41,068 bases of DNA from Flavobacteriales bacterium (GTDB lineage Bacteria > Bacteroidota > Bacteroidia > Flavobacteriales_D > Sanyastnellaceae). A program made the position numbers and the translations under genes. Shown here in pieces: positions 24,191 through 40,951 of this stretch; positions within the stretch are counted from its first letter, which is position 1, and every line of letters starts with the position of its first letter. Below the pieces are notes generated by a model that ran no database searches, was not told where the DNA came from, and saw only the letters and a program-made list of their open reading frames with translations. The stretch lies in contig JANQWV010000010.1 of NCBI GenBank assembly GCA_030729695.1, positions 1 to 41,068 on the forward strand, written 5' to 3'.

Positions 24191-24223
24191 AACACCAACA
24201 ACAACATTGCTGCTGAAATGTTC

Positions 24224-25234
24224 CTAGGAGCGATAACGAATCTTCTTCGTCCAAGCCAAAGAAGGCTTCTCAATAAGATGGTACATCATCCAAGCTCCAA
24301 GAACTGCATAGACTTGAATAGCAATGAAGACTACCCAAACCAATTTTCCATCTTGGGACTCGTGGTAGAATTTTCCGTAGATGAAGGAAACGAAAAACAA
24401 ATGAAATAAATAATACGAATAGGAAACGTCGCCGATAAAGTTCAACCACGAAGGTCCCCTCTTAATAAAATATATGGCAAAGAAAGTAAGTCCTGCGACA
24501 ATTGTAATGTGCGTCCCCAAATGCAATTGATCATATATGTTGAAGAGTCCAACCGCCAAAGAAACGACCACCCCACTCCAAAATTCCAATTTCGAAATAT
24601 TTTTTTTGTAATAGAGAAACAACGAAAACCCTAACGCAAAAACAGGTAAATGGAAAAACACATTTTCCTTGGTATGCATGGGTACAAAGAAGTGCGAAAG
24701 AAAGGTTAAGGCTAAGCTTCCGTAATACGCAACAAGTCGAACAGAAAGCTTATTGCTTGCAAGAAAAGGAAAGATAAGTGCGAGGTAGATGTAGTATTGA
24801 AACTCTACGAACAAGGTCCAGTACACTTCAATCACCCATCTAGATTCTTTGAAAGGAACTTGGAACGTAACGCTATCTATAAATCGTTGTATAATTTCTA
24901 CATCGTAGAATGAACGATTGTCTTTCATAATCCAAATTCCAATTACGAAAATAATTACAGAGACAACGAAAGGCGGATACAATCGAACGATTCGTTTCAA
25001 CATGAACTTATCTAAGTTCTTGAAACCGTACTTCCCTTGTTCCATAGACCAGGGAAGAACGACACCACTGATTACAAAAAATACATAGACGCCTTCTTGT
25101 CCCCAGTCGAGCAAGTGATGAAACTCAGGATAAAAAGGTTGAATAATAAATGCAGAATGGAACATACAAACCATCCAGGCCGCGACACCGCGCAGGGCAT
25201 TTAAGAGTCCTATTGGATTGGTTGTTTCTTCCAT
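24224..25234 (-). CDS. Acyltransferase-3 family integral membrane protein
   Basis: 336 residues with about ten hydrophobic segments. The family signature is at the N-terminus: LLNALRGVAAWMVCMFHSAF with Arg15 and the catalytic-type His26. Other typical stretches are FVISGVVLPWSM, FMLKRIVRLYPPFVVSV, and the C-terminal FIGDVSYSYYLFHLFFV. Enzymes of this family O-acylate surface polysaccharides, lipids or peptidoglycan; the acceptor cannot be told from sequence. The ATG lies only 8 bases past the T-run of the tRNA-Leu terminator, which is an unusual position for a gene start. Confidence 0.9.
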   Translation of the reverse strand: MEETTNPIGLLNALRGVAAWMVCMFHSAFIIQPFYPEFHHLLDWGQEGVYVFFVISGVVLPWSMEQGKYGFKNLDKFMLKRIVRLYPPFVVSVIIFVIGIWIMKDNRSFYDVEIIQRFIDSVTFQVPFKESRWVIEVYWTLFVEFQYYIYLALIFPFLASNKLSVRLVAYYGSLALTFLSHFFVPMHTKENVFFHLPVFALGFSLFLYYKKNISKLEFWSGVVVSLAVGLFNIYDQLHLGTHITIVAGLTFFAIYFIKRGPSWLNFIGDVSYSYYLFHLFFVSFIYGKFYHESQDGKLVWVVFIAIQVYAVLGAWMMYHLIEKPSLAWTKKIRYRS

Positions 25235-25242
25235 CGTTAAAT

Positions 25243-25270
25243 AAAAAAATCCTTGAATTTCTTCAAGGAT
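25243..25270 (-). terminator. Intrinsic terminator after tRNA-Leu
   Basis: On the minus strand the perfect 9-base stem ATCCTTGAA / TTCAAGGAT (plus-strand arms 25249-25257 and 25262-25270), with a GAAA loop, is followed by a run of T. It lies 26 bases downstream of the tRNA-Leu 3' end and just before the acyltransferase start. Confidence 0.85.
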
Positions 25271-25296
25271 TTAATTTGCGCGATTAATCGCTAATG

Positions 25297-25381
25297 TACC
25301 CGGAGTGGGACTTGAACCCACACGACCGCAATGGCCACAGGATTTTAAGTCCTGCGTGTCTACCGATTCCACCATCCGGGC
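25297..25381 (-). tRNA. tRNA-Leu (anticodon UAA)
   Basis: 85-base class II tRNA read on the minus strand. Acceptor GCCCGGA pairs with TCCGGGT (terminal G-U), the D arm contains GGTAGACAC, and the anticodon arm CAGGACT-TAA-AATCCTG places TAA as anticodon. A long variable arm and the T arm GTGGGTTCAAGTCCCAC follow. CCA is not encoded. It reads UUA/UUG codons. Confidence 0.95.
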
Positions 25382-25394
25382 AAAACACTCAGAT

Positions 25395-25427
25395 AAAAAA
25401 AAACCTGACAATCAATCAGGCTTTTTT
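25395..25427 (-). terminator. Possible bidirectional terminator between the two tRNA genes
   Basis: Stem CCTGA (25404-25408) / TCAGG (25416-25420) with a 7-base loop, flanked by nine A on the left and six T on the right, so a U-run follows the hairpin in either direction. The stem is short (five pairs, extendable by A-U pairs). It would limit read-through from tRNA-Gly into tRNA-Leu. Confidence 0.55.
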
Positions 25428-25435
25428 AAAACTTG

Positions 25436-25508
25436 AGCGAGAGACGAGACTCGAACTCGCGACCCTAACCTTGGCAAGGTTATGCTCTACCAACTGAGCT
25501 ACTCTCGC
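25436..25508 (-). tRNA. tRNA-Gly (anticodon GCC)
   Basis: 73-base cloverleaf on the minus strand. Acceptor GCGAGAG pairs with CTCTCGC, D arm GCTCAGTTGGTAGAGC, anticodon arm AACCTTGCCAAGGTT with GCC in the loop, T arm GCGAGTTCGAGTCTCGT, discriminator T. CCA is not encoded. It has its own strong promoter upstream. Confidence 0.96.
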
Positions 25509-25533
25509 TTAACTATAAAGAACTTTTGGATTG

Positions 25534-25563
25534 CAAAAATAAAAAGAACTTGCTATTCCACAA
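25534..25563 (-). promoter_or_regulatory. Promoter of tRNA-Gly
   Basis: Minus strand: TTG (25561-25563, within CTTGTGG), 19 bases, then TATTTTTG (25534-25541), a perfect TTG-N19-TAnnTTTG promoter. It lies just downstream of the alkB stop. Confidence 0.8.
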
Positions 25564-25584
25564 GACTTTTTTTTGTTTTTCTTT

Positions 25585-26595
25585 TCAATCAGTTAAAAGG
25601 GGATTCATCACTTTAAACCATCTCGCTGGAAACAAGGCCAATACCATCATTGCAGGGTATCCGAAGGGAAGTTGTTTTGAACTTTCTAATGACCTCAAAT
25701 CTTGAAAAGGTCGTTCTGGATTTGCATGATGATCGCTATGTCTGCTTAATTCAAACAATACAGCCCTGCCTAATATATGATCTGAATTCCAAGAGTGTTG
25801 AGGCGCAACTTGCTCGTATCTGTTTTCATTTACCTTGTTACGAGTTAATCCGTAATGCTCGATATAATTGACGGTTTCTAACAAAATCATTCCGAGGAGA
25901 GCAGCGATAACAAATGACAAAAGAGCTAATGGATTCCAAACATATATTACTAGACAAATGCCTAATTGTAATATCGAATAAATCAAGGTTTCACTAAAAA
26001 ACAACGATCTGTTTTTGCGTTTGCATTCACTCCTGGAAATCTTCCATGCTGAAAGATAACTTCCGGGAATAACTCGAAACCAGAAGGCATAAACAGACTC
26101 GTTCTTTCTGGCTGTGGCAGGGTCTTGCAGCGTTCCAATCCACTTGTGATGCCCCTTATTGTGCTCTACATAAAAATGCATGTAGAGTGAGGTGCTCAAG
26201 AGAATTCGAGCAACAAGTCTATCCGAAAATTTCGGGGAGTGTCCTAACTCATGAGCGACATTAATTCCAAATACTCCACACATGATTCCCATTGCCGAAA
26301 CATTTCCTATCCAGGTAAACATCGTGACTTTCGCATCAAGCTGTGCAGAGAAAAAACAGTAAATCAAAATCAATTGAACCGGAAGTGTCAGATACAGAAG
26401 CATCTTAAACCAGAATTTCTTTTTCACACTTTCAGCCTGCAGATTGGAATTCACAGGCTTCCACTTCCACTCAAAAAAAGGAATTAATCCGAAAGCGAAA
26501 AGAAGTGTGAGATAGGAATAAACTCCTCCCCATTCAAAACCAAAAAAGGCTAATGCTGGCAGAATAAAAGCCAATAGATATTTGAGGTATCGCAT
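25585..26595 (-). CDS. alkB: AlkB-type integral-membrane alkane 1-monooxygenase
   Basis: Non-haem di-iron hydroxylase of the inner membrane that converts alkanes (or a related terminal alkyl chain) to 1-alkanols with electrons from rubredoxin. It has 336 residues with about six hydrophobic segments. All histidine motifs are present: HELGH (115-119), EHNKGHH (144-150), NYIEHYGL (243-250) and RHSDHH (285-290). The NYIEHYGL motif separates true AlkB from fatty-acid desaturases and xylene oxygenases. It is shorter than the roughly 400-residue Pseudomonas enzymes, and no fused or adjacent rubredoxin gene is in the window. It follows the lipoprotein gene by 16 bases as last gene of the argS operon. 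The substrate is unknown. Confidence 0.9.
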   Translation of the reverse strand: MRYLKYLLAFILPALAFFGFEWGGVYSYLTLLFAFGLIPFFEWKWKPVNSNLQAESVKKKFWFKMLLYLTLPVQLILIYCFFSAQLDAKVTMFTWIGNVSAMGIMCGVFGINVAHELGHSPKFSDRLVARILLSTSLYMHFYVEHNKGHHKWIGTLQDPATARKNESVYAFWFRVIPGSYLSAWKISRSECKRKNRSLFFSETLIYSILQLGICLVIYVWNPLALLSFVIAALLGMILLETVNYIEHYGLTRNKVNENRYEQVAPQHSWNSDHILGRAVLFELSRHSDHHANPERPFQDLRSLESSKQLPFGYPAMMVLALFPARWFKVMNPLLTD

Positions 26596-26611
26596 ACCTC
26601 AAATTTACTCA

Positions 26612-27163
26612 TTACATTTTATTCTTCGCTTTAAATGCTGCTAAAATTTCCTCATCTGTTTTCCCTAAAACTTCCAAGGCCATTTTGGCTTGCTCAGCCC
26701 AGAATGAAGTTGAGAAATCTGTGATTAACAATTGGTATTCCTGTCGCGCAACATCGAATTGCTTGAGCTTAGCGTCATTGATAAACGCATAGGTGTAATG
26801 AAGTTCAGCTAATTTCTCTGGATTACTCTCTATCGCGAAGGCACTTTCGAAACAGCTTTTTACTTCTTCGTTGAAATGCGCTTCGCCACTAATGCTTCCT
26901 GCCTTTTCGAAATACATGACTTGGGTATTTCTATCGGTGGTAATTAATGCAAGTTCTTTGTAAGCAGCAACTACACCTTTCAATTGCTCGCGTGACATTT
27001 TGATAATTGGATTACCTGCCTTCACATTCGCATCGAAATCGCTCACGACTTTCAATAAAGAATCTCCATTGATTTTCTTTTCCTTTGGAGCTTCCGCGGT
27101 TTGATTTCCTCCACAAGAAGCGAATAAGATTGCTGATACAGCTATAAAAAATAACGTTCTCAT
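26612..27163 (-). CDS. Predicted lipoprotein with helical repeat (TPR-like)
   Basis: 183 residues. Signal peptide with lipobox LFASC (Cys17) followed by GGN, so it should be lipidated and kept in the periplasm or outer membrane. After a short charged linker the rest is helical and resembles tetratricopeptide repeats (for example QVMYFEKAGSISGEA, ESNPEKLAELHYTYAFI and DVARQEYQLLITDFSTSFWA), which suggests a protein-binding scaffold. I do not recognise a named family. Its ATG overlaps the def stop (27160-27163), so translation is coupled. Confidence 0.8.
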   Translation of the reverse strand: MRTLFFIAVSAILFASCGGNQTAEAPKEKKINGDSLLKVVSDFDANVKAGNPIIKMSREQLKGVVAAYKELALITTDRNTQVMYFEKAGSISGEAHFNEEVKSCFESAFAIESNPEKLAELHYTYAFINDAKLKQFDVARQEYQLLITDFSTSFWAEQAKMALEVLGKTDEEILAAFKAKNKM

Positions 27164-27726
27164 CCTTTGTAAAATTTCATTCGGTAATCCGTATTAATAT
27201 TTCCTTTTTGAATATCGCGAAGTTTTCCTTTCAAAAGTTGTTTGCGTAACGGGTTAATGCGATCGGTAAAAAGAATTCCTTCAATGTGATCATACTCGTG
27301 TTGAACCACACGCGCAGCAAAACCTTCCAATTCTTCCTCGTACAATTCCCAATTTTCATCGTAATACTCAATTTTCAATTTCGGCTTTCGCTTTACATCT
27401 TCTCGAATGCGAGGGATTGACAAGCAGCCTTCTTCGCAAGACCATTCGGTTCCGGATTCTTCGAAGATGATTGGATTTATGAATACACGCTTAAAATCTT
27501 CGCATGATGGATCTCCGTCTTCACCTTCTGCCACAGGAGAGGCATCTATAACAAACAAGCGAATTGAACGTCCTATTTGAGGCGCTGCAATACCCACACC
27601 ATTAGAGGCATACATCGTCTCAAACATATTCTCAATGAGCTCCTTCAGATTCGGATAATTCTCATCAATTTCTTCCGCTTTTTTCTTTAAAACGGGATCT
27701 CCGTATGCGATAACTGGTAAAATCAT
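27160..27726 (-). CDS. def: Peptide deformylase
   Basis: Cytosolic metalloenzyme that removes the formyl group from the N-terminal Met of nascent proteins. It has 188 residues from MILPVIAYGDPVLK. Motif 1 GVGIAAPQ is at 43-50, motif 2 EGCLSIP at 99-105 (metal ligand Cys101) and motif 3 HEYDH at 143-147. A longer frame starts at 27786, but its extra 20 residues overlap ribB and are not family-like. An acidic insertion (EGEDGDPSCED, about 68-78) is common in Bacteroidota deformylases. It precedes the lipoprotein gene in the argS operon. Confidence 0.96.
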   Translation of the reverse strand: MILPVIAYGDPVLKKKAEEIDENYPNLKELIENMFETMYASNGVGIAAPQIGRSIRLFVIDASPVAEGEDGDPSCEDFKRVFINPIIFEESGTEWSCEEGCLSIPRIREDVKRKPKLKIEYYDENWELYEEELEGFAARVVQHEYDHIEGILFTDRINPLRKQLLKGKLRDIQKGNINTDYRMKFYKG

Positions 27727-27736
27727 TTTTACAATA

Positions 27737-28789
27737 TTAGAGCCTAATGTATTCTGTAATCTCCAATCCGTATCCCTCGAGCGCACTGCGTTTGATCTGA
27801 GACGAAGAGATTAACTTCATTTTTGAAACGTTCAATGCACGAATAATTTGAGCGCCAATTCCATAATCACGCTCATCGTTGTTTCGCTTTTCATTTTCCA
27901 ACAAAACAAGTAATCCTCTCCCCTCTTTTTGAATGGTCTCAAGTGCGGTGTTTAGTGAATTGTGTTGTTGAAGAAGCACATCAATAAAATCTCCGTAGGA
28001 AGAAACTGCTTGAACACGAACAGGCACCGCCTCATTCTCGTTCCAATTTCCAAATTTCAATGCTGCGTGATTTCGTGAATGCGACTCACTTCCAAAATGA
28101 ACAATCTCCACCTCCATTCCCAACCAACTTCTGTTCTCTCTTTTCGTTTCTTCGATGAGCGTTTCTCTTTGAAGTCTGTATGCCACCAGAGATTCAATTG
28201 AAATGATTTTCAAATCTAACTCTTTGGCAATCTCTAGCAATTGCGGAAGACGAGCCATTGTGCCGTCGTCGTTCATGATTTCCACTAATGCTCCCGCTGG
28301 TTTCATTCCACACAAACGCGCCAAATCAACCGTTGCTTCAGTATGTCCTGTTCTTCTTAGCACACCACCTTCTTTCGCGATTAGTGGAAAGATATGTCCA
28401 GGACGACCCAAGTCTTCCGGACGAGTATTTGGATCGATTAACGCTTGAATTGTCTTCGAGCGATCGTGAGCGCTAATGCCGGTAGTGCAGCCGCTTCCGA
28501 TTAAATCGACAGAAACTGTAAAAGCTGTTTTATGTGGATCCGTGTTATTTGAAACCATCAAGTCCAAATTCAATTCTTCACAACGTTCTTGCGTGAGAGC
28601 AACACAAATAAGTCCTCTGCCGAATTTCGTCATGAAATTGATAACCTCAGGGGTAACAATTTCCGCAGGAGCAATGAAATCTCCTTCGTTCTCGCGATTC
28701 TCATCGTCAACAACAATGACTACTTTACCATTTTTGAAATCGGCAATCGCCTCTTCAATTGTATTTAATTTCACTTCAGATGTTGACAT
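27737..28789 (-). CDS. ribB: 3,4-dihydroxy-2-butanone 4-phosphate synthase with degenerate C-terminal RibA-like domain
   Basis: Riboflavin pathway enzyme converting ribulose 5-phosphate to 3,4-dihydroxy-2-butanone 4-phosphate. It has 350 residues. The RibB domain (about 8-205) is intact, with the metal-binding DDENRENEGD (28-37), GLICVAL and the RTGHTEATVDL motif (146-156). The C-terminal domain (about 212-350) has the place and size of GTP cyclohydrolase II, but the zinc-binding cysteine cluster and the catalytic segment around it are missing. It probably has only the RibB activity, and a separate RibA is expected elsewhere. The start lies two bases after the argS stop. Confidence 0.9.
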   Translation of the reverse strand: MSTSEVKLNTIEEAIADFKNGKVVIVVDDENRENEGDFIAPAEIVTPEVINFMTKFGRGLICVALTQERCEELNLDLMVSNNTDPHKTAFTVSVDLIGSGCTTGISAHDRSKTIQALIDPNTRPEDLGRPGHIFPLIAKEGGVLRRTGHTEATVDLARLCGMKPAGALVEIMNDDGTMARLPQLLEIAKELDLKIISIESLVAYRLQRETLIEETKRENRSWLGMEVEIVHFGSESHSRNHAALKFGNWNENEAVPVRVQAVSSYGDFIDVLLQQHNSLNTALETIQKEGRGLLVLLENEKRNNDERDYGIGAQIIRALNVSKMKLISSSQIKRSALEGYGLEITEYIRL

Positions 28790-28791
28790 AA

Positions 28792-30585
28792 TTACATTCT
28801 TTCGGGCATTTCAATGCCCAATACATTCATAGTTTTTTTCACGACCTCGCCCACTTGCTTGGTTAGTGCTAAACGAAAAACTCTTAAGTCGTTGTTTGGT
28901 TCGCGAAGAATCGCACATTGCTGATAAAAACTATTGAAGTCTCGCACTAAATCATACGTGTATGCTGCAAGAACAGATGGGTTGTATGTACTCGTTGCAT
29001 CGTCAAATGCTGCAGGAAGATCTAGCAAATGCTTAATCAATTGTCTCTCTGTTTCGTGCAGTTCACCTGTATAATCCAAAGCACTTAATTCACCTTCAAC
29101 CTTTCTTAAAATGGCTTGTGTGCGGACATATCCGTATTGAATGAACGGACCTGTATTTCCGTTGAAGTCGATACTTTCCTTCGGATCGAACAACATGTTT
29201 TTCTTCGGGTCTACGCGAAGCAAGAAATACTTCAACGCACTCATTCCAATGATGTGGTGAAGATGATCTTTTTCTTCATCTGACATTCCTTCCAACTTAC
29301 CCTGTTCTTCTGCCACTTCTTTCGCCACTTGCTTCATCTCGGCCATGATATCGTCTGCGTCTACAACAGTACCCTCGCGACTTTTCATTTTCCCTTCTGG
29401 AAGTTCAACCATACCGTAGCTCAAGTGGAAACATTTTTCCGCTTGTTCCAATCCTAACTTCTTCAATATTTTAAATAATACTTTGAAGTGATAGTCTTGC
29501 TCATTTCCAACGGTATAAACCAATGAAGAAGCATCGGGATAATCGCGAAAACGCAACATAGCTGTTCCAATATCTTGCGTGATGTACATTGCTGTACCGT
29601 CCTTTCTTAAAACGACCTTCTCGTCTAAACCTTCACCTGTTAAATCTATCCAGATGCTTCCATCTTCTTTCTTGAAAAACACACCGTTTTCCAATCCCTT
29701 CATCACCTCGTCTCTTCCTAAAATATAGGTGTCACTTTCGTAATATAATTTATCGAAATCCACGCCCATGGTCTTGTAGGTTACATCAAAACCGTCGTAA
29801 ACCCAGCCGTTCATTTTCGACCAAAGGGCTATTGTATCAGCATCTTTGTTTTCCCATTTCAACAACATTTCGCGCGCACCTGTTGCAATGGGTGCTTGCG
29901 CCTCTGCGTCTTCCTTTGACAATCCTGAAGCAATAAGATCAGCGACCTGACCTTTGAATCTTTTATCGTATTCAACGTAATACTTTCCAACCAGCTTATC
30001 TCCCTTCATCCCCGATGATTCAGGAGTCTCGTTTAATCCGGATTCCATCCAAGCAATCATGCTTTTGCAAATGTGAATTCCTCTATCGTTGATCACCTGC
30101 ACTTTCGTAACCGAATGACCATTCGCCTTGAAAATTTCCGAAACGGAATAGCCTAAGAAAATATTTCTTAAGTGTCCAAGGTGCAGTGGCTTGTTGGTAT
30201 TTGGTGAAGCGTATTCCACCATGACTCTCGGCTTTGAATTCGCTGCGGCTAATCCGAAGTTATCAAGTTGTGTTACATTTTGAAATTGATCTCCCCAGAA
30301 AGCATCATTGAAATGAAGATTCAAAAATCCTTTCACCACATTGAATCTTTCGATTGAAGGAATTTCTTTTTGAAGCCCCTCGCCTATTTCTTGTCCAACC
30401 GCCTCAGGTGATTTACCCAATTTCTTCACCCATGGAAAAGTCACAACGGTAAGGTCACCTTCGAATTCTTTTCGTGTTTTTTGTATTTGAATTTCACTGT
30501 CTAAAACTTCTATTTGGAAGTTGTTCTGAAAGACATTCTTCAAGGCTGAATGAAGCAATTGATAAGCGGTAGCGACGTTTTTCAT
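28792..30585 (-). CDS. argS: Arginyl-tRNA synthetase
   Basis: Class I synthetase that charges tRNA-Arg. It has 597 residues: N-terminal Add1 domain (about 1-110), HIGH-type motif HLGH (135-138) in NKPLHLGHLRN, KMSKS-type loop KMKSREG (399-405), and a C-terminal DALR anticodon-binding domain ending NVLGIEMPERM. All is intact. A -7 element TACTTTTG at 30594-30601 is placed 8 bases upstream. It is the first gene of the operon argS-ribB-def-lipoprotein-alkB. Confidence 0.98.
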   Translation of the reverse strand: MKNVATAYQLLHSALKNVFQNNFQIEVLDSEIQIQKTRKEFEGDLTVVTFPWVKKLGKSPEAVGQEIGEGLQKEIPSIERFNVVKGFLNLHFNDAFWGDQFQNVTQLDNFGLAAANSKPRVMVEYASPNTNKPLHLGHLRNIFLGYSVSEIFKANGHSVTKVQVINDRGIHICKSMIAWMESGLNETPESSGMKGDKLVGKYYVEYDKRFKGQVADLIASGLSKEDAEAQAPIATGAREMLLKWENKDADTIALWSKMNGWVYDGFDVTYKTMGVDFDKLYYESDTYILGRDEVMKGLENGVFFKKEDGSIWIDLTGEGLDEKVVLRKDGTAMYITQDIGTAMLRFRDYPDASSLVYTVGNEQDYHFKVLFKILKKLGLEQAEKCFHLSYGMVELPEGKMKSREGTVVDADDIMAEMKQVAKEVAEEQGKLEGMSDEEKDHLHHIIGMSALKYFLLRVDPKKNMLFDPKESIDFNGNTGPFIQYGYVRTQAILRKVEGELSALDYTGELHETERQLIKHLLDLPAAFDDATSTYNPSVLAAYTYDLVRDFNSFYQQCAILREPNNDLRVFRLALTKQVGEVVKKTMNVLGIEMPERM

Positions 30586-30593
30586 ACGGAAAA

Positions 30594-30601
30594 CAAAAGT
30601 A
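30594..30601 (-). promoter_or_regulatory. Probable -7 element for the argS operon
   Basis: TACTTTTG on the minus strand fits TAnnTTTG exactly and ends 8 bases before the argS ATG, so the leader would be very short. The -33 TTG is not obvious; its place is next to the rpmE2 terminator. Confidence 0.45.
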
Positions 30602-30623
30602 CATTGTTTTTATGGAGCGCCCT

Positions 30624-30658
30624 AAAAAAAAAGCCACTCGCTTGAGTGGCTTTTCTTT
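30624..30658 (-). terminator. Intrinsic terminator after rpmE2
   Basis: Seven-base perfect stem GCCACTC (30633-30639) / GAGTGGC (30644-30650) with a 4-base loop. On the minus strand it is followed by nine T (30624-30632 as A on the plus strand); TTTTCTTT on the other side makes it potentially bidirectional. It separates rpmE2 from argS. Confidence 0.9.
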
Positions 30659-30675
30659 GTAAGCGGTGATGATTA

Positions 30676-30933
30676 TTATTTTTTCTCAAATTTTGCATAG
30701 CGCGTCTTGAACTTGTCAATACGACCTGCAGTATCTACTAATTGCATCTTACCAGTATAGAACGGGTGAGAAGCAGATGTAATCTCTAATTTGATTACAG
30801 GATATTCGTTTCCATCTTCCCACATGATGGTTTCTTTTGAATTACAAGTGCTCTTTCCTAAGAAAGTATGCTCGTTAGACATATCTTTGAAAACTACCAA
30901 ACGGTAAGATTCTGGGTGTATTCCTGTTTTCAT
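30676..30933 (-). CDS. rpmE2: 50S ribosomal protein bL31, type B (zinc-free)
   Basis: bL31 links the two subunits at the central protuberance. It has 85 residues. The N-terminus [17 protein letters not shown] and the C-terminal [21 protein letters not shown] are typical of the type B form. Only one cysteine is present (in STCNSKE), so the CxxC zinc site of type A is absent. It is a single-gene transcription unit with a strong promoter and a terminator. Confidence 0.97.
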
Positions 30934-30960
30934 ATTCTGTATTCTTTGTTAAAACGAGTG

Positions 30961-30990
30961 CAAATATACATGAATTTTCTAAAAATACAA
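30961..30990 (-). promoter_or_regulatory. Promoter of rpmE2
   Basis: On the minus strand TTG (30988-30990, in CTTGTA) is followed by 19 bases and TATATTTG (30961-30968), a perfect match to TTG-N19-TAnnTTTG. The predicted start is about 20 bases before the ATG. Confidence 0.85.
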
Positions 30991-31056
30991 GTCCCGTTTC
31001 ACATTCCTGTGTTTATAAGTCGAAAAAGCAAACTCGAGACCGGTCAAATGCCGCTA

Positions 31057-31064
31057 TATGTTTG
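31057..31064 (+). promoter_or_regulatory. Possible -7 element for the candidate small RNA
   Basis: TATGTTTG fits TAnnTTTG and would start transcription near 31070. There is no TTG 19-21 bases upstream, so this rests on the -7 element alone. Confidence 0.3.
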
Positions 31065-31069
31065 TCCTG

Positions 31070-31226
31070 TCTAAGAACGCTTAGAGATTGTGAACACACG
31101 TGCTACGCACATTACAATATTTAAGTATACTGCCGAGTAACAACGGTTACCAGTAGTTTTGGTTAATTAGAATTTGTTTAGGTAATTAGTCTGAAAAACC
31201 CTCGTTCGCGAGGGTTTTTCGTTTTG
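31070..31226 (+). ncRNA. Candidate structured small RNA of about 150 bases
   Basis: Consecutive perfect stems fill the segment. Hairpin 1: TCTAAG (31070-31075) / CTTAGA (31080-31085) with loop AACG. Hairpin 2: ATTGT (31087-31091) / ACAAT (31114-31118) enclosing GTGC (31100-31103) / GCAC (31107-31110). Hairpin 3: TACTG (31128-31132) / CAGTA (31151-31155) enclosing GTAAC (31137-31141) / GTTAC (31146-31150), again with loop AACG. A TAATTA pair follows (about 31165 and 31183). It ends with a textbook intrinsic terminator. It is not coding, not tRNA-like, and lacks tmRNA or SRP signatures that I can recognise. It could be an independent RNA or a leader of the downstream gene; the terminator 22 bases before that gene's ATG allows either. 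Confidence 0.4.
31194..31226 (+). terminator. Strong intrinsic terminator upstream of the recombinase gene
   Basis: Six-base perfect stem CCCTCG (31199-31204) / CGAGGG (31209-31214), loop TTCG, extended by five A before and five T after, then CGTTTT. No annotated plus-strand gene lies upstream, so an unannotated transcript must be what it terminates; otherwise it acts as an attenuator. Confidence 0.85.
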
Positions 31227-31228
31227 TC

Positions 31229-31236
31229 TATCTTCG
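31229..31236 (+). promoter_or_regulatory. Probable -7 element for the recombinase gene
   Basis: TATCTTCG is one base from TAnnTTTG and ends four bases before the ATG at 31241, which would give an almost leaderless mRNA. Confidence 0.35.
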
Positions 31237-31240
31237 TGCA

Positions 31241-32137
31241 ATGAGTTGGGTTGGATTAAAAAAAGGCTTCGATATTTATTTACGATTGGAAAAGTCCCTT
31301 TCGGAAGCCACCCGCTCAGCTTATTTGAAGGACGTCACGAAACTCGAGAACTTCACTGAAAGTATTGCAGTGTCTTCCATCACTCATGAAACCATAACTT
31401 CCTTTTTAAAATTTCTTCATGAATTGGGCTTGGAGGCCACTTCTCAAGCGCGAATTATTTCCGGACTTAAAGGATTCTTTTCTTATTTGATTTTGGAAAA
31501 GGTTATTTCAATAGATCCCATGGAATTTATTGAAATGCCTAGAACTTCTCGCAAGCTTCCAGACGTGCTCAGCATTGAAGAGGTTGTATCAATTATTGAG
31601 CATTGCGATTTAAGTAAACCTGAAGGAACGAGGAACAGAGCCATTCTTGAAACCCTTTACAGTTGTGGGCTTCGCGTGAGCGAGCTCACCGATCTGAAAA
31701 TTTCTCAAATGCGAACGAGCGATCAGCTGTTGCGCATTGTTGGAAAAGGAAACAAAGAGCGCTTCGTCCCGATTGGAGAAGAGGCCATGAAATGGATTCA
31801 GCATTACAACGAACACATGCGCAATCACATGACTCTTGCGCCTGGGCATGAGGATTTTGTTTTTCTAAATCGAAGAGGAAAGAAGTTAAGTCGTATGTAT
31901 ATCTTCACCATTATTCGTGAAAATTGCGTTGCATTAGGCATTCAAAAGCAAGTGAGCCCTCACACTTTCCGTCATTCATTTGCAACTCATCTTGTTGAAG
32001 CCGGGGCAGATTTACGGGCTGTTCAAGAAATGCTTGGACATTCGAGCATTACAACAACCGAGATTTACACGCACATCGACAGATCTCGCCTGAAAGAAGA
32101 GATTCAGCTGTTCCATCCGCGGTACGGAAAAAATTGA
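31241..32137 (+). CDS. xerD: Tyrosine recombinase, XerD/XerC type
   Basis: Site-specific recombinase expected to resolve chromosome dimers at dif together with FtsK. It has 298 residues, the exact Xer length: an N-terminal SAM-like core-binding domain (about 1-95) and a C-terminal catalytic domain with Arg145 (CGLRVSEL), Lys169 (GKGNKER), His241 and Arg244 (HTFRHSFATHL), His267 (GHSSITTTEIYTH) and the nucleophile Tyr276. No phage or transposon genes and no attachment-site repeats flank it, so it is likely the housekeeping enzyme rather than an integrase. XerC versus XerD cannot be settled from this window. Confidence 0.9.
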   Translation: MSWVGLKKGFDIYLRLEKSLSEATRSAYLKDVTKLENFTESIAVSSITHETITSFLKFLHELGLEATSQARIISGLKGFFSYLILEKVISIDPMEFIEMPRTSRKLPDVLSIEEVVSIIEHCDLSKPEGTRNRAILETLYSCGLRVSELTDLKISQMRTSDQLLRIVGKGNKERFVPIGEEAMKWIQHYNEHMRNHMTLAPGHEDFVFLNRRGKKLSRMYIFTIIRENCVALGIQKQVSPHTFRHSFATHLVEAGADLRAVQEMLGHSSITTTEIYTHIDRSRLKEEIQLFHPRYGKN

Positions 32138-32212
32138 AAAAATCCAATAATCCCACTATTTTTCGCAAAGACTTAATACACTTATAATCATCTCCTCGTG
32201 TATATCCGTCCT

Positions 32213-32220
32213 TATATTTG
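32213..32220 (+). promoter_or_regulatory. Probable -7 element for the 960-residue secreted protein
   Basis: TATATTTG matches TAnnTTTG exactly, 16 bases before the ATG at 32237. No clear TTG stands 19 bases upstream. Confidence 0.45.
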
Positions 32221-32236
32221 AGCATCCTTTCAAATT

Positions 32237-35119
32237 ATGAAAAAGTTATTATTCTTTTTGTTCATTGTAGTCACTTCGATTATTACGAATGCCCAATCTG
32301 TTAGCATAACATCGAATGACCTGATTTTATGCCCGGGAGAAAGCGCAACGCTCACCGCTGTAGCAGATCTTCCCAATCGCGTGTTGAATTTTCCGCGTGC
32401 TGCGAACCAAGCGATTATACTCAATAATGTACCCGCGCAAACAATCGGTACTTTTTCGTATGAGTTTTGGTTCAATACCCCTGACTCTATTGTTTTGCTT
32501 CCGGAGCATGTCGATGGTATTGGTATTTACGACGGTCAAGCTGGCCAAAATTATGCAGTATACCCTCAAAGCATTTTTAGTGGAGTTCAAAGGCGTTCTT
32601 CTGGAATTTCTGTTGGTGTTAATGGTATTTCTGTCATGGAGCAAAGCCATCAGTTCTCTGCATCTCGATTAACCTACGCCGCTGATTTGAGCGGGTGGCA
32701 CCACTGCGCTGTAGTATACACCTCGAATAATTTCGAACTTTTCATAGATGGTGTTTCGGTGGGCGCACGATTGAACGGATCGAATTATGCAGACAACAAT
32801 TTCGGAGTTCCTTTGACTGTGGCGTTCCGTCCTAACCTTGGAAATAGCTATCCTGCACTTGGAGGTATTGACGCTGACCCTAATGACGCATACTTGGGTC
32901 AACTCGACGAATTTCGTGTGTGGAAGATTGCTCTTTCTGCTGCAGATATTGGCGCTATTTACAATCGTAAATTAATTTCAGCAAATATGCAGAATGTAAT
33001 AGTTCACATGCCGTTCGATATGGGAACTCAAGCCAACTTCAGCACCATTCCCTCCACACCAACTATAACGATTGGAGCCCCAGGAGCCACCGCTGGAGTA
33101 ACGTTTCCATCGGCAGCCATTCCTCAAGTTGGAACCTTTGCGGGCACCAATTTAGCATCAGCTATTTACAATCCGTTTGTTGTTGGCTATGTGTGGAACG
33201 ATGGCACCATTGGAAACACGCTTGTTGTTTCTCCAACAGCAGCTTCGACAACTTATACTTGCACAGCAACTGCAGGAACATCCAGCGCAAGTTCTACCAT
33301 AACGATCGTGACATCCGCACCGACTGCGACTATCTCCAGCAGCAATCCGCTTATATTTTGCGCCGATACATCAGCGACTTTAACAGCCAATGCAGGAACC
33401 GCCTATCTGTGGAATACTGGCGACACGACCTCGTTCATTACGGTTGACACCACGGGTATTTATAGTGTTGTAGTTACCAACGCAGACAATTGCAATGCAA
33501 CATCTGCAGGAACTTCGATCACGGTTAATCCTCTTCCTGAACCAATCATTACCCCTCTATCTGCTACTACATTTTGTGAAGGAGACAGTGTTATTTTATC
33601 GAGTAGTATTGACTCGCTCTATCAGTGGAGCACCACTTCTACCGACAGCGTTTTAGTTGTGAGCAACGCAGGAGATTACACCGTTACGCTGACAAATATT
33701 TACAACTGCTCTGCAACTTCAGCGCCTGTTACCATTGTTGTGAATCCGAATCCTGTAGCGACCATTGTTGCCAATGGACCTATTTCTTTTTGCTCAGGCA
33801 ATGAAGTTCAGTTGTCTTCTGCCAGTGACATTCCAACTTGGTCAACTGGATCAAGCGATACAACGATATCGGTGATTCAAACTGAAATGATTGAATTACT
33901 TGTCACGAATGAATTCGGTTGCACCGACACAGATTCATTGAGCATTACTGTTTTTGAATTGCCTGTTGTTACTGCTGAAGAAGATACATCTGCATGTATT
34001 TCGAATGGTCCTTTCACATTGGATGCAACCCCAGCACTTGGCACGTGGACAGGTTTAAATGTCGCTAACAACACCTTCAGTCCCACAACCGAAGGAACAT
34101 TCGGTTTTCAATATTCATTTACAGATGGAAATGGATGCACCAACATTGACTCTACTTTCTTTACCGTTGCAATTCCTCTGCAAATAACCGCTGGACCCGA
34201 CGTTTCTGTATGTATGCCCAGCGATCTGATTGACCTTGCGGCTAACGCATCTCCGGCAGGAGGTATCTGGAGTGGATTTGGTGTAACGGCTGAAGGCTCT
34301 GTTCTACCTATTCTGTCTGGAAGTTATGCCTACACTTATTCTTTTCAAGATCTGTGTGCCACAACAGACACCATGTACGTCAATTCATATGACGCTCCTG
34401 CACCGCCCGTAATTGGAGGAGAACTATTTATCTGTAAAAATGTTCCTTCTGCCCTTTGGTCTAATTACATTGGAGGAAATTTATGGACGACCAGTGATCC
34501 GTCAGATACTATCTACATTATTGATGCAGGAACGTACGGCGTTACTTATACCGATGATAATGGGTGCTCGTCATTCTCTGAGGTTGTTGTTCAACAATAT
34601 CCAGAGCCGCAAATTCCGGCTATTTCAGGAGAACCGAATGCTGTATACAACAACACGTATTCATACGCGGTGGCTTCTCTTCCGGATTACACTTACAATT
34701 GGATAGTTACAGGAGGAACAATTATTTCCGGTCAAGGCACCAATGTCATTGAAGTTGTTTGGGATCAGTTCATAACCGGTGTTGGCGAAATACAAATGAC
34801 TTGGGCGAATGCATACGGTTGTGAAAGCACCCAGTTCTATGCTGTTAACGTAGATGTTTCTGTTGAGGAAATTTTTGCTTCAAACCTTCGCATTTATCCG
34901 AACCCAACTCGCGATGTGGTGAACATCCAATGGGACTTCATGAATGAAAACACTTACCTCTCTGTATATGATAATGCAGGAAAGCTTCTTTCTACAAACA
35001 AGCTGAACAACCAGTCGTTGCAGCAGGTGGATTTAAGCGGATACGAAAACGGCGTTTATCAATTGCGATTGAGCAATGAAAACGCCGTTATTATGAGAGC
35101 AATAGTGGTAACGCGTTAA
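32237..35119 (+). CDS. Large T9SS-secreted protein with LamG and Ig-like/PKD-like repeats
   Basis: 960 residues. Signal peptide at 1-20 (MKKLLFFLFIVVTSIITNAQ). From about 47 to 262 is a concanavalin A-like/LamG domain (FSYEFWFNT, GWHHCAVVYTSNNFELFIDG, YLGQLDEFRVWKIALS). About 360-575 is a series of short Ig-like repeats of the form FCxGxxxxLxxxxxxxxxWSTG...YxVxVTNxxxC; more divergent repeats and a PKD-like segment with NWIVTGGTIISGQGTN follow. The last 75 or so residues (LRIYPNPTRDVVNIQW, YDNAGKLL, NGVYQLRL) are a type A T9SS sorting domain. It should be surface-bound and may bind glycans through LamG (inference). The LamG domain appears to be inserted in the first Ig-like repeat (see findings). 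The stop is directly adjacent to the fbaA stop. Confidence 0.9.
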   Translation: MKKLLFFLFIVVTSIITNAQSVSITSNDLILCPGESATLTAVADLPNRVLNFPRAANQAIILNNVPAQTIGTFSYEFWFNTPDSIVLLPEHVDGIGIYDGQAGQNYAVYPQSIFSGVQRRSSGISVGVNGISVMEQSHQFSASRLTYAADLSGWHHCAVVYTSNNFELFIDGVSVGARLNGSNYADNNFGVPLTVAFRPNLGNSYPALGGIDADPNDAYLGQLDEFRVWKIALSAADIGAIYNRKLISANMQNVIVHMPFDMGTQANFSTIPSTPTITIGAPGATAGVTFPSAAIPQVGTFAGTNLASAIYNPFVVGYVWNDGTIGNTLVVSPTAASTTYTCTATAGTSSASSTITIVTSAPTATISSSNPLIFCADTSATLTANAGTAYLWNTGDTTSFITVDTTGIYSVVVTNADNCNATSAGTSITVNPLPEPIITPLSATTFCEGDSVILSSSIDSLYQWSTTSTDSVLVVSNAGDYTVTLTNIYNCSATSAPVTIVVNPNPVATIVANGPISFCSGNEVQLSSASDIPTWSTGSSDTTISVIQTEMIELLVTNEFGCTDTDSLSITVFELPVVTAEEDTSACISNGPFTLDATPALGTWTGLNVANNTFSPTTEGTFGFQYSFTDGNGCTNIDSTFFTVAIPLQITAGPDVSVCMPSDLIDLAANASPAGGIWSGFGVTAEGSVLPILSGSYAYTYSFQDLCATTDTMYVNSYDAPAPPVIGGELFICKNVPSALWSNYIGGNLWTTSDPSDTIYIIDAGTYGVTYTDDNGCSSFSEVVVQQYPEPQIPAISGEPNAVYNNTYSYAVASLPDYTYNWIVTGGTIISGQGTNVIEVVWDQFITGVGEIQMTWANAYGCESTQFYAVNVDVSVEEIFASNLRIYPNPTRDVVNIQWDFMNENTYLSVYDNAGKLLSTNKLNNQSLQQVDLSGYENGVYQLRLSNENAVIMRAIVVTR

Positions 35120-35130
35120 TTACGCGTTAC
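35108..35130. repeat. Coding inverted repeat at the convergent 3' ends of two genes
   Basis: Perfect 9-base arms GTAACGCGT (35108-35116) and ACGCGTTAC (35122-35130) surround TAATT, which carries the stop codon of each gene. Each mRNA would end its coding part in the same hairpin. There is no T-run on either side, so it is not a classical intrinsic terminator. Confidence 0.75.
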
Positions 35131-36184
35131 GACCTACTGCATTTAAATCTTCGAAAGCTTGCTTCAAACGAGCAACGAATTCCTTTTCTCCTTCGCGTAA
35201 CCAAACACGTGGATCGTAGAACTTCTTGTTTGGCTTATCGTCTCCATCTGGATTACCAATTTGGTTTTGCAAATAAGCCGCCTTGCCTGACATGTAGTTA
35301 CGAATTCCCACCATGTATGCCCATTGCATATCGGTATCGATATTCATCTTCACAGCACCGTAAGAGATTGCTTCACGTATTTCTTCGCGTGAAGAACCGC
35401 TTCCGCCGTGGAATACAAAGTTCACTGGCTTTGCTCCGGTGTTGAATTTGCTTTGTATGTGTTCTTGCGAGTTGTTCAAGATAATTGGAGAAAGCTTCAC
35501 GTTTCCTGGCTTGTAGACACCGTGTACGTTTCCAAATGCCGCAGCGACTGTGAAGCGATTCGAAACTGTATTCATGTGCTCATAAGCATAAGCCACTTCT
35601 TCTGGCTGCGTGTATAGTTTGCTGCTATCTACATCGCTGTTGTCAACACCATCTTCTTCCCCACCTGTTACACCCAATTCAATCTCAAGGGTCACTCCCA
35701 TTTGAGTCATCTTCTTGAAATACTCAACGCTCAATTCGATGTTTTCATGAAGAGGCTCTTCAGAAAAATCAAGCATATGTGAGCTGAATAAAGAACGACC
35801 TGTTCTTTCAAAATGTTCCATACCGTGCTGAAGCATTCCGTCCATCCAAGGAAGTAAATTCTTCGCGCAGTGGTCTGTGTGCATGATTACCGGAACACCG
35901 TATGCCTTAGCCATTAGATGAACGTGCTGCGCACCGCTCACAGAGCCTAATACAGCAGCTTCCTGATTCTTGTTATCAAGACCTTTTCCAGCATAGAAAG
36001 CTCCACCTCCATTGCTGAATTGAACAACGACTGGCGAATTCAAATCGCGTGCGGTTTCAAGGACTGCATTTACGCTATTGGTTGAAATAACATTTACTGC
36101 TGGCAACGCATAGCCATGAGCTTTCGCATCGTTCAACACCTCGGTAACTTCGTCACCGGATAATACGCCTGGTTTGAATTTCAT
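35120..36184 (-). CDS. fbaA: Fructose-bisphosphate aldolase, class II
   Basis: Zinc-dependent cleavage/condensation of fructose 1,6-bisphosphate in glycolysis and gluconeogenesis. It has 354 residues, close to the E. coli FbaA length (class IIA). Asp104 and His105 in MHTDHCAKN are the catalytic Asp and a zinc ligand; the further zinc ligands lie in ELGVTGGEEDG, AAFGNVHGVYKPGN and FVFHGGSGS. The N-terminus ALPAVNVISTNSVNAVLE is typical. A promoter TTTG-N20-TAGCTTTA is seen just upstream. Confidence 0.97.
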   Translation of the reverse strand: MKFKPGVLSGDEVTEVLNDAKAHGYALPAVNVISTNSVNAVLETARDLNSPVVVQFSNGGGAFYAGKGLDNKNQEAAVLGSVSGAQHVHLMAKAYGVPVIMHTDHCAKNLLPWMDGMLQHGMEHFERTGRSLFSSHMLDFSEEPLHENIELSVEYFKKMTQMGVTLEIELGVTGGEEDGVDNSDVDSSKLYTQPEEVAYAYEHMNTVSNRFTVAAAFGNVHGVYKPGNVKLSPIILNNSQEHIQSKFNTGAKPVNFVFHGGSGSSREEIREAISYGAVKMNIDTDMQWAYMVGIRNYMSGKAAYLQNQIGNPDGDDKPNKKFYDPRVWLREGEKEFVARLKQAFEDLNAVGRNA

Positions 36185-36202
36185 AAATTTAAATTGAAGT
36201 TG

Positions 36203-36233
36203 TAAAGCTAATGCTCACGCTCGGATTTCACAA
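36203..36233 (-). promoter_or_regulatory. Possible promoter of fbaA
   Basis: Minus strand: TTG (36231-36233), 20 bases, then TAGCTTTA (36203-36210), one base off TAnnTTTG, about 18 bases before the fbaA ATG. It overlaps the spacer after porQ. Confidence 0.4.
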
Positions 36234-36247
36234 ATAGCGAAACGCTG

Positions 36248-37270
36248 TTAGAGTTGCGTGGTGAAGGTAAGGTGGTTGGAACCGCCTGCTACGTGATAAA
36301 TACTTCTTCCGAAGCTCAATTGAAACTTCTTGAAGTTGATCGTGGTTCCGAATGAAAGTCCCGCTGTTGCTGGTCTATTTGGAATGGAAAGCTCTTTACG
36401 CTGACGGTAATTGTATCCCAACCCAACGCGAACGTTATTACCCAAAATAATTTCGGTGCCGACAACAATGTGTCTCATGAGTTGATCACCAAACTCCCAA
36501 GTACGGTCTTCAATGGGCAAACCTGTTAGCGGATCTACGATAACCGTTGCATTCGGATCGGTGTACTTCACATTCCATTTCTGAACATTCTCGTAGGCGA
36601 TGTGAAATAAGAACGGAGCGTTCTTCGGACGTTTGCTAATGGCTATTTGAAATTCCAAAGGCATCTTTTCTCTTGAGCTTTCGCGATAGGTCACAAGTTG
36701 CATACCTACATTTTTCAAAACGAAACTTGCTGCGAAGTTTGTTCTTGGCTGATAGTACGTTGCGGCGGCATCAATAGCAACACCATAAGAATAGAAGCTA
36801 TCGAAAACTGAATACAGATTCTTCAAGTTAAGACCTACACGCCACAGAGAATCGACTTTGTATGAGGCTCCGAGTGTTAGTGCGTATTCATTCGAGTTGA
36901 AAGTGCCGAGACTATTTCCGAGACCGTCTAGTCTTTCGCTCGTGCCATAGCCGAAGTATTGAAGTGTCCCTGCGAAGGCGAACTTGCTATTGGTGGGATG
37001 AAATCCGTAGGAGGTATAACCGAAATTCGACTGTCCGAAATAACGCACGTAACTCATGGCGAGTTTGCGATTCATGAGTGAGTCTATTAAGGCTGGATTG
37101 ATGGCCGCAGTGTTGATGTCGCTTGCACAGAGTGCAATGGCATTGCCGCCCATAGCGGCAACTCGAGCTGAGCCAAATATATTAATTCCGGAAAAAACTG
37201 TGGTGCCCGCTTGGGCGAAGCTAGACAAAGTAGCTGCGCATAATAGAAGGGTAACCAAGTGCTTTTTCAT
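36248..37270 (-). CDS. porQ: Type IX secretion system protein PorQ
   Basis: Outer-membrane beta-barrel component of the T9SS attachment complex (with PorU, PorV and PorZ), involved in processing and anchoring cargo. It has 340 residues. Signal peptide MKKHLVTLLLCAATLSSFAQ; the following INIFGSARVAAMGGNAIALCA is typical of the PorV/PorQ (FadL-like) group, and the strands alternate to the end, finishing HLTFTTQL. This entry is linked by function to the two T9SS cargoes in this window. It lies 47 bases after lon and probably shares its transcript. Confidence 0.88.
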   Translation of the reverse strand: MKKHLVTLLLCAATLSSFAQAGTTVFSGINIFGSARVAAMGGNAIALCASDINTAAINPALIDSLMNRKLAMSYVRYFGQSNFGYTSYGFHPTNSKFAFAGTLQYFGYGTSERLDGLGNSLGTFNSNEYALTLGASYKVDSLWRVGLNLKNLYSVFDSFYSYGVAIDAAATYYQPRTNFAASFVLKNVGMQLVTYRESSREKMPLEFQIAISKRPKNAPFLFHIAYENVQKWNVKYTDPNATVIVDPLTGLPIEDRTWEFGDQLMRHIVVGTEIILGNNVRVGLGYNYRQRKELSIPNRPATAGLSFGTTINFKKFQLSFGRSIYHVAGGSNHLTFTTQL

Positions 37271-37317
37271 GATTCAGGCCTGCAAGTAACGAAATAGTTC
37301 TGAATATATTTCACAGC

Positions 37318-39738
37318 TTACTTTGCTTTTTCTTTGAGGAGAGCTTTGTCTAATACTTCGTACATGTCTGTAACGAAATGAAATTTCAATCCTCTCAAAT
37401 AGCGTTCGTCGATTTCATCGATGTCTTTGCGGTTCTTTTCGCAGAGGATAATCTCTTTGATCCCTGCGCGCTTCGCCGCGAGAATTTTCTCGCGCACTCC
37501 GCCTACTGGAAGGACTTTTCCTCGGAGTGTTATCTCTCCTGACATGGCGAGAAACTTCTTCACTTTTCGTTTTGTGAAGGCTGACGCAAGCGCCGTTAAC
37601 ATGGTAATTCCTGCGCTTGGGCCGTCTTTTGGAACGGCGCCTTGAGGGACGTGAATATGCACATTCGTTTCATCGAAGACTTTCGCTTCCATTTCGAGCA
37701 GGCTCGAATGTGCCTTCAAATACTCTAGCGCAAGTGTCGCGCTCTCCTTCATAACATCGCCCAAATTTCCAGTTAATGTCAATCGACCCTTCCCTTGGGT
37801 TAAGCTTGATTCAATAAACAAAATATCTCCACCCGTTGGCGTCCAGGCTAATCCCGTGACTACACCAGCAACATCATTGTCGGCATAACGATCTTTCTCG
37901 TAGCTCACACCTAACGCCTTCGAAACATCATCTGTGGTCAAAGTCGTTTTGAACTTTTCTTTGAAAGCCATCTGCTTCGCGCGATGACGAACCATCTTGC
38001 CAATGCGCTTTTCTAATGCACGCACACCACTTTCGTTGGTGTAAGACTCTATTAAAAACGCTAACACATCTTCAGTGAAGGCGATGTTCTTTTCTGTTAA
38101 TCCGTTTTCGGTTAATTGCTTCGGCACCAAATGGCGCTTCGCAATTTCTAATTTCTCTTCGAGGGTATATCCGTTTACTTCAATGATCTCTAATCGATCA
38201 CGAAGCGCAGGTTGCAATGTTGAAAGTGAGTTGCAGGTTGCGACGAACATGACTTTCGAAAGGTCGTATTCCAACTCTACGAAATTGTCATAGAACGCAT
38301 GGTTCTGTTCCGGATCTAGGACTTCCAACATAGCGGAACTTGGATCTCCGTGAACCCCTTGACCCATCTTATCTATTTCATCTAAAACGAAAAGCGGATT
38401 CGATGTTCCTACTTTTTTCAAGTTCTGAATAATACGTCCGGGCATTGCACCAATATACGTCTTGCGATGTCCGCGAATCTCTGCTTCATCGTGCAATCCA
38501 CCTAAAGACATGCGCACGTATTTTCTTCCTAGTGCTTCAGCAACGCTCTTTCCGAGCGAAGTCTTACCCACGCCAGGAGGTCCGTATAAGCAGATGATTG
38601 GCGATTTCATATCGCCTTTAATTTTCAATACGGCTAAGTGTTCTAAAATTCTCTCCTTCACTTTTTCCAAACCGAAATGATCACGATCCAAAATTTCTTT
38701 GGCGTGTATCAAATCGAAGTTGTCTTCGCTCGTTTCATTCCAAGGAAGGTCTAGCAATAGTTCAAGGTAATTCGATTGAACGCTGTATTCCGCAGCTTGA
38801 GGATTCATGCGCTCCAACTTAACAAGTTCTTTTTCAAAGGCTGTTGCGACATTATCTGGCCATTGCTTGAGCTTCGCTTTTTCCCGCTTCGCGTCAATTT
38901 CTTCTTTCTGCGGATTAGCGCCTAATTCATCTTGAATTTGCTTGATCTGCTGCGTTAGAAAATATTCGCGTTGTTGTTTCGAAATGTCAATGTGAACCTT
39001 CTTCTGAATCTCTTTCTTCATTTCGAGCATTTGCAGATCGTTGTGCAATTGCTCGAATACTTTCTTCGCTCTTTCCTCTAGATCTGCAATCTCTAACAAC
39101 TCTTGCTTCTTCTCAACATCGGCCTTCATATTCGAAGAAATGAAGTTGGTGAGGAAAGACAAGCCGTTGATGTTTTTAATCGCCAAAGCGGCTTCGCTAG
39201 GGATATCTGGAGAAAGGTTAATGATGTTTAAGGCGTGATCGCGAAGCGATTCAAACAGGGCTTGCTGCCCTTTCGTACCTGCCTTTTTATTGATTTCTTC
39301 GAAAGCCGTTACTTGCGCTTCAAAGTAGGGTTCTGTGTTTACCAAGCCTTGAATCGAGAAGCGTTTCTTTCCTTGAAGAATAACAGTTGTGCTTCCATCG
39401 GGCATACGCAACATGCGAAGAATGGTGGCTTGTGTTCCAATGTGATGAAGATCTTCGAACGCTGGGTCTTCCATGTCGGCGTTGCGCTGTGCAACCACAC
39501 CAATGGTCTTGGTTCCTGCATTCGCATCTTGAATTAAGCGAATGCTGCGATCTCTTCCAACAGTAATTGGAATAACTACACCCGGAAATAGAACAGTGTT
39601 TCTAAGCGGCAAGATGGGTAACACTTCCGGTGTTTCCTCATTCGCCATATTGTCTTCGTCCTCTGCTGAAATCAGAGGAATATATTCATGGTTGTTTTCT
39701 TCGTCAGAAAAAAAATAGTGCTCTACTTCTTTATTCAT
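37318..39738 (-). CDS. lon: ATP-dependent Lon protease
   Basis: Cytosolic AAA+ serine protease for misfolded and regulatory proteins. It has 806 residues from the ATG at 39736-39738 ([10 protein letters not shown]). An in-frame TTG three codons upstream is possible but less likely. The N-terminal Lon domain starts with [15 protein letters not shown], a coiled region follows, then Walker A GPPGVGKT (386-393), Walker B FVLDEIDK (450-457) and the proteolytic domain with the Ser708-Lys751 dyad (PKDGPSAG and [15 protein letters not shown]). Spacing of the dyad equals that in E. coli Lon. It lies 44 bases after the GlmU-like gene. Confidence 0.97.
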
Positions 39739-39782
39739 ACTCCTCAATTTTCAATGTCAATGCCACTCATTATCCTCTGCCT

Positions 39783-40940: not shown

Positions 40941-40951
40941 ATTCTTCAAAT

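Follow-up and report, generated by a model that had tools for sequence, protein, structure and literature searches.

Comparative sequence evidence for a conserved structured noncoding RNA in one family of Flavobacteriales

The window analysed here is a 41,068-nucleotide stretch from a Flavobacteriales bacterium (family Sanyastnellaceae; contig JANQWV010000010.1, positions 1 to 41,068 of the forward strand). Between the divergent genes rpmE2 and xerD it holds a gene-free gap (31057-31226) with an intrinsic terminator on the plus strand, GAAAAACCCTCG-TTCG-CGAGGGTTTTTC (31193-31220), whose 12-bp stem is the longest among the terminators found in a scan of 24000-41000. What does this terminator serve? 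As a preliminary description of the gap had remarked, there is no upstream plus-strand gene for it to end, since rpmE2 lies on the minus strand and xerD starts only at 31241. That description also listed a -7 promoter element and three hairpins and proposed a small RNA (sRNA); all of these elements, like the terminator, were found in the sequence where it had placed them. Comparison with related genomes, mostly metagenome assemblies, shows 31069-31226 to be a conserved structured noncoding RNA gene, as judged from its sequence: its parts are a promoter signature of sigma-A type, a hairpin capped by AACG, an invariant core and the terminator.

Conservation within the genus and a putative promoter

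Counting the window's own genome, eight members of its genus have the intergenic region whole or nearly whole, the others being 90-96% identical to the window. Across seven genomes only 6.3% of sites vary in 31069-31226, compared with 17% in rpmE2, 40% in xerD and 46% in the spacer at 31001-31056, which makes the RNA the least variable local stretch within the genus. The alignment runs from the freely changing spacer through a TAnnTTTG box and a few free bases to near-invariance, which begins at 31069 and lasts to the end of the terminator. The box (TATGTTTG, 31057-31064, plus strand; TAAGTTTG in L003) is present in all eight genus members where the RNA was found, right beside the highly variable spacer. 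TAnnTTTG is located at -12 to -5 in Flavobacterium psychrophilum (PMC9723704), and by this spacing rule transcription would start at G31069, coinciding with the onset of conservation. A clear TTG -33 element was not seen for this promoter. The retention of TAnnTTTG at the proper distance points to a promoter belonging to the RNA itself, in the window's genus only. The predicted product is an sRNA of about 157 nucleotides on the plus strand, with its 5' end at G31069 and its 3' end in the U-tract of the terminator. Coding potential was rejected, as no open reading frame or frame is conserved and the loop at 31104-31106 differs by one base in length between species. We also noted an imperfect 16-nucleotide direct repeat, CACATTCCTGTGTTTA / CACATTACAATATTTA, with one copy upstream of the promoter (31000-31015) and the other within the RNA (31108-31123).

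Conservation across the family and covariation

The 3' part of the RNA, consisting of an AACG-capped hairpin, a core of the form UUUGGUUAAU-N-UAGAAUUUGUUUAGGUAA and a terminator, is shared by no fewer than 18 genera, all belonging to a single Flavobacteriales family. This count combines DNA search with R1, a covariance model built from 19 copies whose E-values are rough; a higher figure, 19 of 21 genera at E <= 0.1, was set aside because some weak matches contribute to it. A further genus (G023) carries a diverged copy. For the 5' half (31069-31125), copies came from a single genus. The architecture shared by the family is a 5' hairpin (31129-31154 in the window), a bipartite core TTTGGTTAAT-(variable)-GAATTTGTTTAGGTAA and the terminator. 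In the window the core is TTTTGGTTAATTAGAATTTGTTTAGGTAATTAG (31157-31189, plus strand), mostly single-stranded and containing two imperfect direct repeats, TTTGGTTAATTAG / TTTAGGTAATTAG. None of the aligned genera differs in either half, TTTGGTTAAT or the segment that runs from GAATTTG to GGTAA; variation is confined to the spacer between them. Base pairs inside the core are likewise invariant and can give no covariation signal.

The hairpin in front of the core, ACTG..GTAAC-AACG-GTTAC..CAGT on the plus strand (GTAAC-AACG-GTTAC at 31137-31150), behaves differently. Across 19 distinct versions of this hairpin we found the inner stem to be paired in 96.8% of cells, G-U pairs included, with both-side changes at all five pairs and 36 double-change cells. 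The covariation score was 1.08 against 0.22 for shuffled alignments (none of 500 reached it), and registers slid along the sequence gave at most 0.28; the alignment was selected on the loop and so leans towards a hairpin, but the stem letters were not selected. The loop is AACG in 31 of the 40 copies, and mostly TTCG or GAAA in the rest, so this loop has persisted while the stem turned over completely. The terminator stem also covaries between genera, its loop being AACG in many relatives and TTCG in the window. Of the stems that had been listed, those of the hairpin at 31129-31154 and of the terminator are conserved in both genus and family, with covariation in the inner stem of the former and in the terminator; the hairpin at 31070-31085 is invariant in the eight genomes and carries no covariation information.

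No convincing R1 match was found outside the family, either in 399 genomes of the order or in 395 of the class. The out-of-family hits, which came from G217, G348 and G052 within the order and from G409 and G574 within the class (E from 5e-4 to 6e-3), were read as chance because a few such hits are expected among so many genomes. When 84,980 named species were scanned for the exact pattern, 39 contigs matched, nearly all from Flavobacteriales or Cryomorphaceae metagenome assemblies. Several metagenome assemblies titled 'Chryseobacterium gleum' (L054, L063, L064, L070, L078, L082, L089) carry this family-specific RNA, and their species label is doubtful. One contig titled candidate division TA06 (LJNI01000064.1, L087:1433-1457) has the core pattern with no recognisable AACG hairpin or terminator, which could be chance or contamination.

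As the preliminary description had advised, all Rfam models were searched, and no family reached its gathering score in the window or at related loci. With the limit relaxed to E = 10, only sub-threshold matches appeared (rnk_pseudo, RsmY, RNAI and some weaker still); most of them fell on the core and terminator, and they were rejected. With conservation linked to a promoter, covariation and presence throughout the family, the proposal of a new Bacteroidota sRNA stands: this is a previously uncatalogued small RNA, for which comparison of sequences gives clear support as a new RNA family.

Folding and alternative structures

Folding of the RNA with its terminator gave z = -3.35, and without it only -0.27, so folding energy by itself is no proof of structure and comparison is needed. 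It is the covariation of the second AACG hairpin, together with invariance within the genus and of the core throughout the family, that supplies the proof. The minimum free energy structure contains a long stem, CTTAGAGATTGTG / ATTACAATATTTAAG (31080-31125, plus strand), enclosing a GTGC/GCAC hairpin at 31100-31110 whose apical loop changes from TAC to AAAT within the genus while its stem is retained. The genus-specific hairpin TCTAAG-AACG-CTTAGA (31070-31085, plus strand) has a pairing probability of about 0.03, because CTTAGA favours TTTAAG at 31120-31125, and is probably a minority conformer; the second AACG hairpin (31137-31150) reaches about 0.7. By these calculations, from which the alternative structures of the 5' half (31069-31125) mainly come, the hairpin at 31070-31085 and the stem at 31080-31125 are mutually exclusive, so that the listed hairpins cannot all form at once.

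Genomic context and history

Most genera have the element a few nucleotides past the stop codon of a gene, here called P0001, whose terminator it carries, with xerD often next. P0001 (for example L018:1595-2959, minus strand) is a conserved protein of about 450 amino acids encoded upstream of xerD across the family; it had no Pfam or NCBIfam match, and its C-terminus looks SPOR-like. A group of other genera has the P0001 gene abutting xerD and lacks the element. At L010, L011, L021 and L022 the RNA persists although it has no xerD beside it. In the window's genus the P0001 gene is gone from the locus, except in a divergent member (G007) that has it beside rpmE2, where the expected place of the RNA falls in an assembly gap. 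Since P0001 was lost while the RNA was kept and changed more slowly than the coding genes around it, the RNA appears to have outlived its host gene and to work on its own; this is the best evidence that sequence comparison offers of an independent function.

The neighbours in the window are xerD (31241-32137, plus strand; TIGR02225, 337.9 bits, over the cut-off) and rpmE2 (30676-30933, minus strand), an open reading frame with a typical L31 type B sequence that keeps the name given in the preliminary description. Between the RNA and xerD lies a separate -7 element, TATCTTCG (31229-31236, plus strand), recognised by its sequence and its conservation in the genus. The spacing rule applied above predicts a start at A31241 of the xerD ATG, i.e. 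a leaderless transcript.

AACG loops elsewhere in the genome

It had been suggested that the AACG loop shared by two otherwise unrelated hairpins was beyond chance. We counted tetraloop hairpins in 1.3 of the 2.1 Mb of the window's genome (G000) and found AACG in 18 of 3755, near 1 in 256, while the ordinary terminator loops were TTCG and GAAA. At such a chance frequency the shared loop is informative, and the idea that AACG is the ordinary terminator loop of this clade was rejected on these counts. AACG does recur as an element, as had been supposed, being found also in many terminators of the RNA and of its putative paralogues.

AACG hairpins of at least 9 pairs outside the RNA had a core 8-mer within 60 nucleotides upstream in 4 of 4 cases, against 10 of 214 other hairpins (p = 1e-5, an association found after the fact). 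The loci L146, L152, L154 and L197, and also L180, look like weak paralogues, in which UUUUGGUUAAG-type words are followed by an AACG hairpin. Some are 3' untranslated regions (UTRs), and L197 lies between opposite-strand genes. The word UUUGGUUAA as a general pre-terminator signal was rejected, genome-wide enrichment being absent; the scans for words before terminators covered 1.3 Mb of G000 and 0.4 Mb of G020. A conserved 3' region with TTTTAGTTAAGGTTTAGGTTAAGG ahead of an AACG terminator was seen at L154:7951- (G000:C50) and at L128 in G004. In addition, the genus g9 has many dispersed copies of a related form, GTGTGATTTGTTTTTTTGGTTAATTAATGGATTTGGTTAAGTAAG with a terminator, often CCTCCC-AACG-GGGAGG (L120, L121, L122, L123, L130, L132, L133, L136, L137), which may be a multicopy RNA or a 3' UTR element.

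Candidate targets and partners

The complement of the 12 most conserved core bases is TTACCTAAACAA. Outside the RNA, 7 of 16 distinct exact sites lie 2-6 nucleotides before an intrinsic terminator, whereas none of the 30 sites of the reversed motif does (p = 2e-4, the motif having been seen before testing); collapsing the dnaA sites of one genus leaves 6 of 15. At the 3' end of the dnaA mRNA, ATTACCTAAACA stands directly before the terminator and is a perfect complement of 12-14 core bases in genera g1 and g4 (L187:17151-17168 in G000:C22; also L266, L312 and L319). Unrelated genes in four other genera (L252, L254, L259, L273) carry TTACCTAAACAA 3-6 nucleotides before a terminator.

Among possible protein partners, Hfq was not found in 18 genomes in which the positive controls were detected. 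The genome of the window has an RRM gene, but RRM proteins were not found in the well-assembled RNA carriers G009, G014, G024, G026 and G063. This phyletic pattern led us to reject an RRM (RbpB-like) protein as a general partner.

Discussion

How, then, might this RNA work? It probably regulates other transcripts. In the window's genus it would be transcribed as a 157-nucleotide sRNA from its own promoter, kept in these close relatives after the loss of P0001, while in most other genera it would be released from the 3' UTR of P0001. The core would be the active part: through UUGUUUAGGUAA it would pair with UUACCUAAACAA at the 3' ends of a small number of mRNAs, dnaA being one of them in two genera, and thereby alter how stable these mRNAs are or how their 3' ends are processed. 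The role of the AACG hairpin, and of the UUUGGUUAAU half, might be to hold the RNA in shape or to dock a protein, and the core could act in trans through 3'-end pairing, protein binding or both. A trans-acting sRNA pairing through UUGUUUAGGUAA is the best mechanism that we can infer, although we hold it tentatively and stop somewhat short of calling it likely.

Several results count against pairing in trans. TAnnTTTG was not found in the 230 nucleotides before the core in other genera, so that in these the element probably belongs to a 3' UTR, which may be processed. Exact core complements (TTACCTAAACAA) are not in excess over the reversed-motif control overall, and sites with up to 2 mismatches show no enrichment near terminators in G000. 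The dnaA complement occurs in the window's genus and g4 only and is absent from other genera with a readable dnaA end, and dnaA was therefore rejected as a family-wide target; duplex energies of the RNA with the dnaA 3' UTR were only about 2 standard deviations better than shuffles. Finally, the invariant core of about 28 nucleotides exceeds the usual seed, so that protein binding is also indicated.

That surplus length is one reason to consider a sponge or docking RNA, acting in the manner of CsrB/RsmY or 6S RNA but on another protein: the AACG hairpins and the tandem UUUGGUUAA/UUUAGGUAA words would be repeated sites for an RNA-binding protein, which the RNA would titrate or deliver. The two direct repeats in the core would fit such a role, as would an AACG loop that survives complete turnover of its stem and is often present in the terminator too, and the same words stand beside AACG hairpins in the paralogues. 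There are, however, usually just one or two AACG hairpins per RNA, the replacement of the loop by TTCG or GAAA in some genera suggests a role in stability, RRM proteins were missing from five RNA carriers and Hfq from 18 genomes, and no candidate protein emerged. We consider a sponge rather unlikely. A cis-acting element that protects, processes or ends the P0001 mRNA, surviving in the window's genus as a relic, would account for its position just after the P0001 stop codon, for its supplying the terminator and for the lack of a visible promoter in other genera; yet a relic should not change more slowly than adjacent coding genes once P0001 is gone, nor keep a promoter box. We consider a cis-acting role of this kind unlikely.

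A terminator-controlled xerD leader had also been proposed, and in many genomes the RNA does lie just upstream of xerD. Several points speak against such a leader or attenuator: the terminator closes before the separate -7 box of xerD, from which a start at the ATG itself is predicted, the RNA persists at loci with no adjacent xerD, and genera lacking the element have xerD directly after the P0001 gene. We regard a leader as very improbable. Hardly any weight can be given to a dif-like DNA site on which the adjacent XerD would act. A single strong copy beside xerD in many genomes and a core of about 28 bp would suit it, but the hairpin covaries as RNA, down to its G-U pairs, the core spacer varies in length where the centre of dif is fixed at 6 bp, inverted arms are absent, and the change in strand skew is found at some distance from the element (in the one closed genome, at coarse resolution). 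Two matches to a dif consensus were obtained, both weak and unrelated.

Among known systems, the FopS and GibS sRNAs of Bacteroides have sigma-A-type promoters, and at least one FopS member is derived from a 3' UTR; FopS is confined to Bacteroidaceae, has its conserved stretch at the 5' end and is bound by the RRM protein RbpB (PMC11697453). The RNA described here resembles FopS in its promoter type and in the 3'-UTR origin of at least one FopS member. Both also have a conserved single-stranded stretch ahead of an intrinsic terminator, which is a likeness in architecture and no more. It differs in that its core is internal and preceded by an AACG hairpin, and in that RRM proteins do not track it; no Rfam match to FopS was obtained at gathering score, assuming that the copy of Rfam used includes the FopS model. 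6S-Flavo (RF01685), of which the RNA had been thought a possible divergent member, is likewise a Bacteroidota small RNA of similar length. That assignment was not upheld, as there was no gathering-score match and the RNA has separate hairpins in a chain instead of one long bulged hairpin with a closing stem and central bubble; a genome-scale 6S-Flavo search matched no genome, controls included, and is hence uninformative. Rfp18 and other Rfp sRNAs of Flavobacterium psychrophilum are independently transcribed, structured and preceded by TAnnTTTG promoters (PMC9723704). They are similar by description. For our RNA no convincing homologue was detected outside its own family among the 399 genomes of the order. 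RNAs of the RsmY/CsrB type (RF00195) share repeated identical hairpin loops and a terminator, but their GGA loops were not encountered, the loops here being mostly AACG and otherwise TTCG or GAAA. The sub-threshold RsmY hit (30.9 bits against a cut-off of 57) covers the AU-rich core and terminator and places no GGA loops.

Few sRNAs have been described in Flavobacteriales, and Hfq was not detected in the genomes examined here. The invariant core names the bases to mutate, and the loss of the host gene with retention of the RNA is a natural experiment. The RNA also offers a connection from an sRNA to the dnaA transcript that can be put to the test, and it may lead to an RNA-binding protein. In a wider and decidedly speculative version, which we think improbable, a family-wide network operating with no detected Hfq would use UUUGGUUAA/UUGUUUAGGUAA words and AACG hairpins in sRNAs and 3' UTRs to pair with pre-terminator complements, that of dnaA included. 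If true, such a network would represent regulation at the 3' end, beside the terminator, and would link a small RNA to the initiation of replication.
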